From Alphaproteobacteria bacterium (lineage in GTDB: Bacteria > Pseudomonadota > Alphaproteobacteria > Rhodobacterales > Rhodobacteraceae), in NCBI GenBank assembly GCA_029289325.1, contig JARFTV010000012.1:1-64000 (forward strand): 64,000 bases of DNA. The letters are read 5' to 3'. This document shows, one piece after another, positions 21,869 to 22,278 of this stretch. The notes beneath the pieces are model-generated. The model was not told the origin of the DNA. It ran no database searches and saw only the letters and a program-made list of their open reading frames with translations. The translations under genes were made by a program, and so were the position numbers. How positions within the stretch are numbered: the first letter of the stretch is position 1; every line of letters begins with the position of its first letter.

Positions 21869-21883
21869 GTTCTACACTTGTTC
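21869..21883. promoter_or_regulatory. LexA (SOS) box, alphaproteobacterial type
   Basis: GTTCTACACTTGTTC matches exactly the direct-repeat operator GTTC-N7-GTTC known for LexA of Rhodobacter and other Alphaproteobacteria. It ends 2 bases before the ATG of the OB-fold gene and lies 92 bases before the divergent ferredoxin gene. Confidence 0.75.
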
Positions 21884-21885
21884 TC

Positions 21886-22278
21886 ATGCTGGACCGTTCC
21901 ATCTACCGCGATCCCTGGCCGCGCCCGCCCCGCGCGCTTCCGGCCGCCCGGTTGGGCGAGCCGCCCTCGGGCGCGCGGGTGACGGTGGCGGGGCTGGTGC
22001 TGGTGCGACAGCGGCCGGGCACGGCCAAGGGGGTGATCTTCGTCACGCTGGAGGATGAGACCGGCACGGCGAATGTCGTCGTCTGGGCCAAGGTATATGA
22101 ACGCTTCCGCCGCGCGGTCATCGCGGGGCGGTTGCTGCGGGTCACGGGGAAGCTGCAGCGCGAGGCGGGGGTGGTCCATGTGGTGGCCGAGCTGATCGAG
22201 GATCTCTCACCGCTTCTGGACCGGCTGCTGGAGCCGGGGTTCCGCCCCGATGGGGTGCGGGCGGGCGACCAGCCCTGA
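21886..22278 (+). CDS. OB-fold protein, detached C-terminus of DnaE2/ImuC
   Basis: Protein of 130 residues that matches only the C-terminal OB-fold of the error-prone polymerase DnaE2 (ImuC). Residues 30-115 carry [56 protein letters not shown] and [13 protein letters not shown], all well known in DnaE2. No polymerase, PHP or thumb region precedes it, and neither imuA nor imuB is nearby. ATG 21886 directly follows a LexA box and has no ribosome binding site, so the message may be leaderless or the start may be wrong. It is either a decaying remnant of an imuA-imuB-dnaE2 cassette whose promoter survived, or a small SOS-induced ssDNA-binding protein. The domain call is firm; function is open. 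Confidence 0.78.

Follow-up and report, generated by a model that had tools for sequence, protein, structure and literature searches.

In a lineage of the Rhodobacteraceae, the translesion polymerase DnaE2 (ImuC) is divided into two genes that each carry a LexA operator: one for the polymerase body and one for the C-terminal OB domain alone (the solo OB gene), an example of which lies in the window, the whole 64,000-nucleotide stretch of DNA that was analysed. The division is real, and it is larger than the initial annotation of this DNA had described. Comparison of sequences among relatives makes it likely that DnaE2 fissioned once and that the OB domain now serves as a separate SOS-controlled subunit acting with the OB-less body. 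The OB domain is here naturally separated and has been kept across a large clade, and because it is encoded by a separate gene it can be deleted, titrated or purified while the polymerase is left untouched. To our knowledge, there has been little direct testing of what the OB domain of DnaE2 does.

Operator, promoter and genomic address of the solo OB gene

The solo OB gene, a detached C-terminal DnaE2 OB domain, occupies positions 21886..22278 of the plus strand and encodes 130 amino acids, with its stop codon at 22276-22278. As had been noted initially, an exact LexA operator ends 2 bases ahead of the ATG: GTTCTACACTTGTTC, of the form GTTCN7GTTC, lies at 21869-21883 (+) and is followed by TC and then by the ATG at 21886. 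The exact operator recurs at 48 of 51 solo-OB loci, at 36 of which the gap to the ATG is likewise 2 nt; the remaining three comprise one that starts at a contig edge (L035), one with a single mismatch (L085) and one from which the operator has been lost (L074). On its own, the operator count is at or near chance frequency, the pattern being seen three times in the window against 1.39 expected and 111 times genome-wide against 88 for a reversed control, so that an argument from count was rejected; the operator is significant because of its position and conservation.

A -35 element, TTGCAT (21851..21856, +), stands 16 bp ahead of a -10 element, TACACT (21873..21878, +), which falls within the operator, and the ATG starts 8 nt past the latter. 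This arrangement is shared by the orthologous promoters with an exact operator: a TTG of the -35 element lies at 16-17 nt from the -10 element in 40/48 (shuffles gave a mean of 3.4 and a maximum of 9), the -10 element reads TANNNT in 37/48, and the ATG follows 8 nt after it in 36/48. From this geometry it is predicted that LexA represses the gene by covering the -10 element and that the solo OB mRNA is probably leaderless, while the conserved operator leads us to infer LexA binding and induction, and with them LexA control. The same frame stays open upstream of 21886 and would give 216 amino acids if counted from 21628; the gene start is nevertheless placed at 21886 because operator, promoter and start are conserved. 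At the locus that has lost its LexA box (L074, genome G087), a TATACT stretch lies right before the solo OB ATG and dnaE2 keeps a near-operator, and solo OB expression may be constitutive there.

The neighbours of the gene define a conserved address. On the divergent side lies what we take to be a ferredoxin gene, fdx (21454..21777, -), and downstream, convergently, what is presumably a DegP/HtrA-type protease gene (22387..23841, -). The divergent fdx is found at 50 of the 51 loci, the remaining locus being cut at a contig edge, and the distance from the middle of fdx to the middle of the solo OB gene is 0.44-0.53 kb at the majority of loci, rising to 0.74 kb in L068 and to 1.1 kb in L025; degP follows the solo OB gene, in opposite orientation, in 42 of the 51 solo-OB stretches. 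A frame error hiding a full dnaE2 upstream, considered in the initial annotation, does not account for the small gene, the upstream neighbour being the ferredoxin gene on the other strand. In four loci of the same genus (L012, L014, L015 and L024), short inverted repeats of the form aaatttctt...aagaaattt are present between solo OB and degP.

Domain content and conservation of the protein

The identification of the 130-residue product as the C-terminal OB-fold of DnaE2 and nothing else was borne out by profile comparison, the best NCBIfam model being the DnaE2 model NF004225, matched only over positions 942-1040 of 1047 (E 2.8e-33), with the next-best model at E 3.2e-07. The protein matches the general OB family PF01336 at E 6.7e-14 (52 bits against a cut-off of 27, aa 32-107), and the single-stranded-DNA-binding family PF00436 reaches 14.1 bits, below its cut-off of 26. 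The AlphaFold2 model is an OB barrel with a mean pLDDT of 81 and strands at 31-39, 50-57, 60-67, 83-93 and 96-106; together with PF01336 it places the OB fold at aa 31-107 (21976..22206, +). A fold search with the model returned OB domains of tRNA synthetases, RPA and CST. Sequence searches of the PDB yielded weak matches only, the best being RPA14 (E 0.024) and Pol III alpha 5fku (0.057), as did PADLOC (best E 0.0035). The PHP domain, polymerase core and HhH are absent from the 130-aa protein; because the core is encoded elsewhere in the genome, on contigs C117 and C95, the solo protein alone is not a DnaE2 polymerase and resembles a detached part of one.

The solo proteins also carry a feature of their own. 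Ahead of the barrel, a WPRPP motif at aa 11-15 (21916..21930, +) distinguishes the solo proteins from fused DnaE2, the general form W[PS][RKAH]PP being shared by 48 of 51 solo proteins and by none of the 44 fused rows, of which three are without a detectable OB region; the motif is a candidate docking site. The opposite holds for the RDFH/RDFR end, found in 35 of the 44 fused rows and in neither half of the divided enzyme (0/36 body rows, one of them cut by a contig end, and 0/51 solo proteins). Pairwise dN/dS of the solo OB gene (Nei-Gojobori) is 0.06-0.15 for the pairs examined within the genus and 0.20-0.56 for six more distant pairs, in which synonymous differences no longer rise, and these sequence comparisons show the gene to be under purifying selection. 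Absence from all relatives with accumulation of stops, the other refuting condition of the initial annotation, does not hold: relatives keep the gene open, with low dN/dS in the genus pairs.

The rest of the mutasome in the same genome

The initial annotation had suggested looking for imuA, imuB and a full dnaE2 elsewhere in the genome (4.17 Mb in 120 contigs, listed as 99.9% complete), of which imuB is present, dnaE2 is present without its OB end, and imuA was not found with the two queries used. The DnaE2 model NF004225 has four matches in this genome: DnaE1 (on C3), two dnaE2 pieces and the window gene. The dnaE2 piece at the end of C117 corresponds to profile positions 3-854 and that at the start of C95 to 866-940, where a stop codon comes right after ...LTLRAHPMQLLRPLLDAA, the point at which fused DnaE2s continue into the OB domain. 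This dnaE2 is broken over the two contig ends, with profile positions 855-865 unseen. Searched against its own genome, the window protein otherwise matches only DnaE1 (E 0.008) and one further sequence (E 8.5). A second, OB-bearing DnaE2 was considered and rejected, since the matches are confined to DnaE1, the OB-less pieces and the window gene.

The other components lie behind LexA operators as well. The dnaE2 body has a LexA box, GTTCTCTGTTTGTTC, 34 nt ahead of its aligned start, and imuB (C4:25666-27306) has one immediately ahead. Across relatives, operators occur within 130 nt upstream of 33 of the 34 split dnaE2 genes with an aligned 5-prime end (20 exact and 13 one off), against a mean of 0.23 and a maximum of 2 in shuffled controls; L111 and L117, with their 5-prime parts not aligned, are omitted from this count. 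The exception is G064, in which imuB, further upstream on the same strand, has a box. An exact GAACN7GAAC box is present upstream of imuA in all six loci examined, which come from five split genomes and G082. The AT-rich genome G064 (L118/L158; listed at 1.9 Mb and 74% complete) encodes imuB, a methyltransferase-like gene and the OB-less dnaE2 consecutively, and its solo OB is very diverged, yet found at the same ferredoxin address.

Distribution of the two halves

The OB protein and the DnaE2 model were searched in 148 genomes, 91 of them in Rhodobacteraceae and tallied by hand. Of these 91, 49 have both an OB-less DnaE2 and a solo OB, 39 have neither, two (G010, 59% complete, and G082) have only the OB, and one (G075) has only the body; among the 39, fused DnaE2 occurs in 30 and no DnaE2 was scored in nine. 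The tally of both halves includes G002, G006, G015 and G027, whose listed body matches stop early, leaving the OB-less end unseen, and in which there is no other OB match at E 0.001. G025, one of the nine without a scored DnaE2, is tallied under neither; a lack of both halves was rejected for it, an OB gene start with an exact box running into the contig end at its fdx address and short dnaE2 fragments being present. Assignment of G040:C2 as split was likewise rejected: its dnaE2 reaches the contig end and the OB starts at base 9 of the same contig, and it is tallied as fused, being probably a single fused gene interrupted at the origin.

A broader draw from the family comprised 395 genomes, and 187 of them match the solo alignment at E <=1e-44, of which 170 do so at <=1e-50, the solo range, and 17 lie between 1e-50 and 1e-44, the score zone of known fused proteins (G033, G057, G080), the status of matches weaker than ~1e-56 being set by score. 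Among the matches listed from this draw, at least 11 have one stop inside the match, and G376 has a 1649-aa open frame. A scan of named genomes places the closest relative in Tabrizicola (T. aquatica, 97%) and shows further solo frames in records under the names Rhodobacter, Cypionkella, Rhodovulum and Defluviimonas; its 80 loci comprise 56 short and 24 long frames, an exact box preceding 49 of the 56 short ones, and the seven short frames without it include L178, at a contig edge, and L221, L225 and L236, which are possibly pieces of fused genes. A locus in CP059262.1 (L180), a record titled Exiguobacterium profundum MAG, encodes a solo OB 88% identical to that of the window behind the same operator, and the record is probably a Rhodobacteraceae genome under a wrong name. 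In G029, a second short OB-like match is found at a contig start.

A single origin of the division

A single and ancient fission of DnaE2 is well supported by sequence comparison. In a FastTree tree of 80 DnaE2 body rows, all 36 OB-less bodies fall on one side of a branch with a local support of 100; fused and split were called by protein end and length, with L096 set by hand to split (profile end 938, followed by a long unrelated tail) and L097 and L131 to fused, and L126, under 800 aa, left out. The fused rows closest to the OB-less clade are those of G035 and G048, in which imuB is on another contig (G035) or oppositely oriented (G048) and dnaE2 has a LexA box directly ahead; separation of imuB combined with a dnaE2 box suggests that dispersal of the cassette preceded fission. 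The OB tree (92 rows) has few columns and is weakly resolved, three fused rows having shown no detectable OB; in it the solo OBs lie within those of Rhodobacteraceae DnaE2, next to the fused G048, and the long-branch solo OB of G064 lies outside the clade.

Linked presence and loss

Linkage of the two halves, whose presence, absence and decay mostly go together, is well supported. The ferredoxin address was looked at in 12 genomes that lack a clear match to the solo OB. Of five inspected genomes from lineages that lost their OB-less body or had it replaced, four show deletion or decay of the solo gene. G004, of the same genus, has two fused DnaE2s and no split body, and at its fdx address a LexA-like box, TC and an ATG are followed by only the 3-prime end of an OB gene, a remnant with a DNA alignment score of 58 against a shuffle maximum of 34 (0/200) and a weak protein comparison (E 0.11). 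The fused-only genome G033 has a C-terminal OB part without a box at the fdx address (tblastn E 1.5e-8; DNA score 59, shuffle maximum 41, 0/200). G005 and G018, also of the same genus and with no DnaE2 or ImuB match, have fdx and degP facing each other and an intervening region that scores like shuffles, representing one or two losses. At the fdx addresses of G034, G035, G043, G048, G084 and G085 no convincing OB was found, and these genomes may never have had one.

Two single-half genomes count against this reading. In the body-only genome G075, no true fdx could be located in the assembly (41% at best), so that the missing OB may reflect an assembly gap; G462, of the same genus, has a solo OB. 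In G082 (seven contigs, listed as 100% complete), solo OB, imuA and imuB are present with LexA boxes (L036, L150, L255) and no dnaE2 body was found in the seven contigs, which stands against linked loss: the OB may have a role without DnaE2, or the body may have been lost recently. The genome is in this respect a natural test of OB function in the absence of DnaE2.

Proposed mechanism and alternative readings

It is proposed that the OB domain of DnaE2 split off once, in an ancestor of the Rhodobacteraceae lineage, and that the detached gene came to lie, behind a LexA-covered promoter of its own, between fdx and degP. A different locus encodes the polymerase body, which stops at the former OB boundary and has a LexA operator ahead of it, as do imuB and, in relatives, imuA. 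LexA on the -10 element would keep the OB gene silent until DNA damage leads to LexA cleavage and to a leaderless mRNA beginning at the ATG or beside it. In the next step, the OB protein would join the OB-less DnaE2 (and ImuB/ImuA) in trans and would putatively restore a single-stranded-DNA or clamp-side contact of DnaE2 in lesion bypass. Taken as a whole, a naturally split translesion polymerase with the OB as a separately SOS-controlled subunit, expressed from a leaderless mRNA whose -10 element is inside the LexA site, is put forward tentatively. If it is true, the cell could adjust how much OB is present relative to polymerase, and ImuB/ImuA could also make use of the OB where DnaE2 is missing, as hinted by G082.

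The detached OB could instead be an independent SOS-controlled ssDNA-binding protein, acting alone or with ImuB/ImuA and not as a part of DnaE2, as might be read from the retention of OB, imuA and imuB without a dnaE2 body in G082, from the W[PS]xPP motif that sets 48 of the 51 solo proteins apart from the 44 fused ones, and from the lack of an RDFH/RDFR end in any solo protein. Such independence is unlikely in view of the near-strict co-occurrence with an OB-less body (49 genomes with both, 3 with a single half, 39 with neither) and of the decay or absence of the gene in genomes whose body has disappeared or been replaced (G004, G033, G005, G018); decay in G004 in spite of its fused DnaE2 and imuB specifically disfavours any role that does not depend on the split body. 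One of the two initial proposals, a small nucleic-acid-binding protein under SOS control, is correct as to form, but a detached subunit of a split DnaE2 is the preferred description because the two genes mostly occur, are missing and decay together.

The other initial proposal, a collapsed cassette that left a functionless promoter and tail, had in its favour that the locus holds only the OB-encoding end of dnaE2, but it has been overtaken by the dnaE2 with its own LexA box, ending at the OB boundary, and the imuB found elsewhere in the genome; with the gene open and at one address in 51 loci, dN/dS low between the genus pairs examined and scores in the solo range in 170 of the 395 family genomes sampled, it retains practically no probability. 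It is scarcely more probable that the solo OB has no relationship with DnaE2 and belongs to another kind of OB protein, such as an SSB- or tRNA-binding-like one, with a resemblance to the DnaE2 OB. The tRNA synthetase and RPA/CST domains returned by the fold search, the generality of PF01336 and the weak PDB matches (RPA14, E 0.024) would fit such a protein; the margin of the DnaE2 model (E 2.8e-33, the next-best model reaching 3.2e-07), the SSB score below cut-off and the position of the solo OBs inside the Rhodobacteraceae DnaE2 OBs would not, and the OB-less bodies end at profile positions 938-962, the solo protein starting at 942.

Relation to known systems

DnaE2 has been tied to SOS mutagenesis in several bacteria (PMC3919608), and in the available text of that source Timinskas and colleagues report several DnaE2s without an OB domain. 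These have the same kind of OB-less body as described here, but the OB is simply absent in that account, whereas here it is a separate gene with a LexA operator; some of the reported cases may be explained in this way, the OB of the Rhodobacteraceae clade being encoded elsewhere and not lost. With the ImuA-ImuB-DnaE2 mutasome, the divided enzyme shares the OB domain, the LexA operators and imuB (imuA in relatives); unlike it, polymerase and OB are two genes at two loci, each with an operator, in a dispersed cassette, and neither half shows the RDFH/RDFR end that is common in fused relatives. Modules of DnaE2 and split ImuB systems (iPolY plus ImuB-C with DnaE2X) are described in PMC12926913, and these likewise have a mutasome component in separately encoded parts; there, however, it is ImuB that is divided and here the polymerase, the available text mentioning no split DnaE2. 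According to the accessible part of a review (PMC3901139), imuA, imuB and imuC may occur as single genes, each with its SOS box, an arrangement of own locus and own LexA box per gene that is shared here, except that imuC itself is divided, giving a fourth LexA-controlled locus. For Pol III alpha, the portion of PMC11253446 consulted describes an OB domain that shifts upon DNA binding and forms another clamp contact. Among the titles and abstract openings listed in literature searches, which did not extend to subscription journals, preprints and supplements, and in the text consulted, no report of a separately encoded DnaE2 OB was found.

Both forms of the enzyme occur together in one genome, G066, which has a split body, a solo OB and a second imuB on C1 and a fused DnaE2 cassette on a 126-kb plasmid. 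It appears to be Dinoroseobacter shibae DFL 12, as the dnaE2 coordinates agree with plasmid NC_009957; in the available text of a LexA-site study of D. shibae (PMC6473078), neither dnaE2 nor the solo OB gene is named. On NC_009957 (L278), positions 357-6387 hold in order an SOS response-associated peptidase gene, a gene for a hypothetical protein, which is imuA by position, the Y-family imuB and dnaE2.
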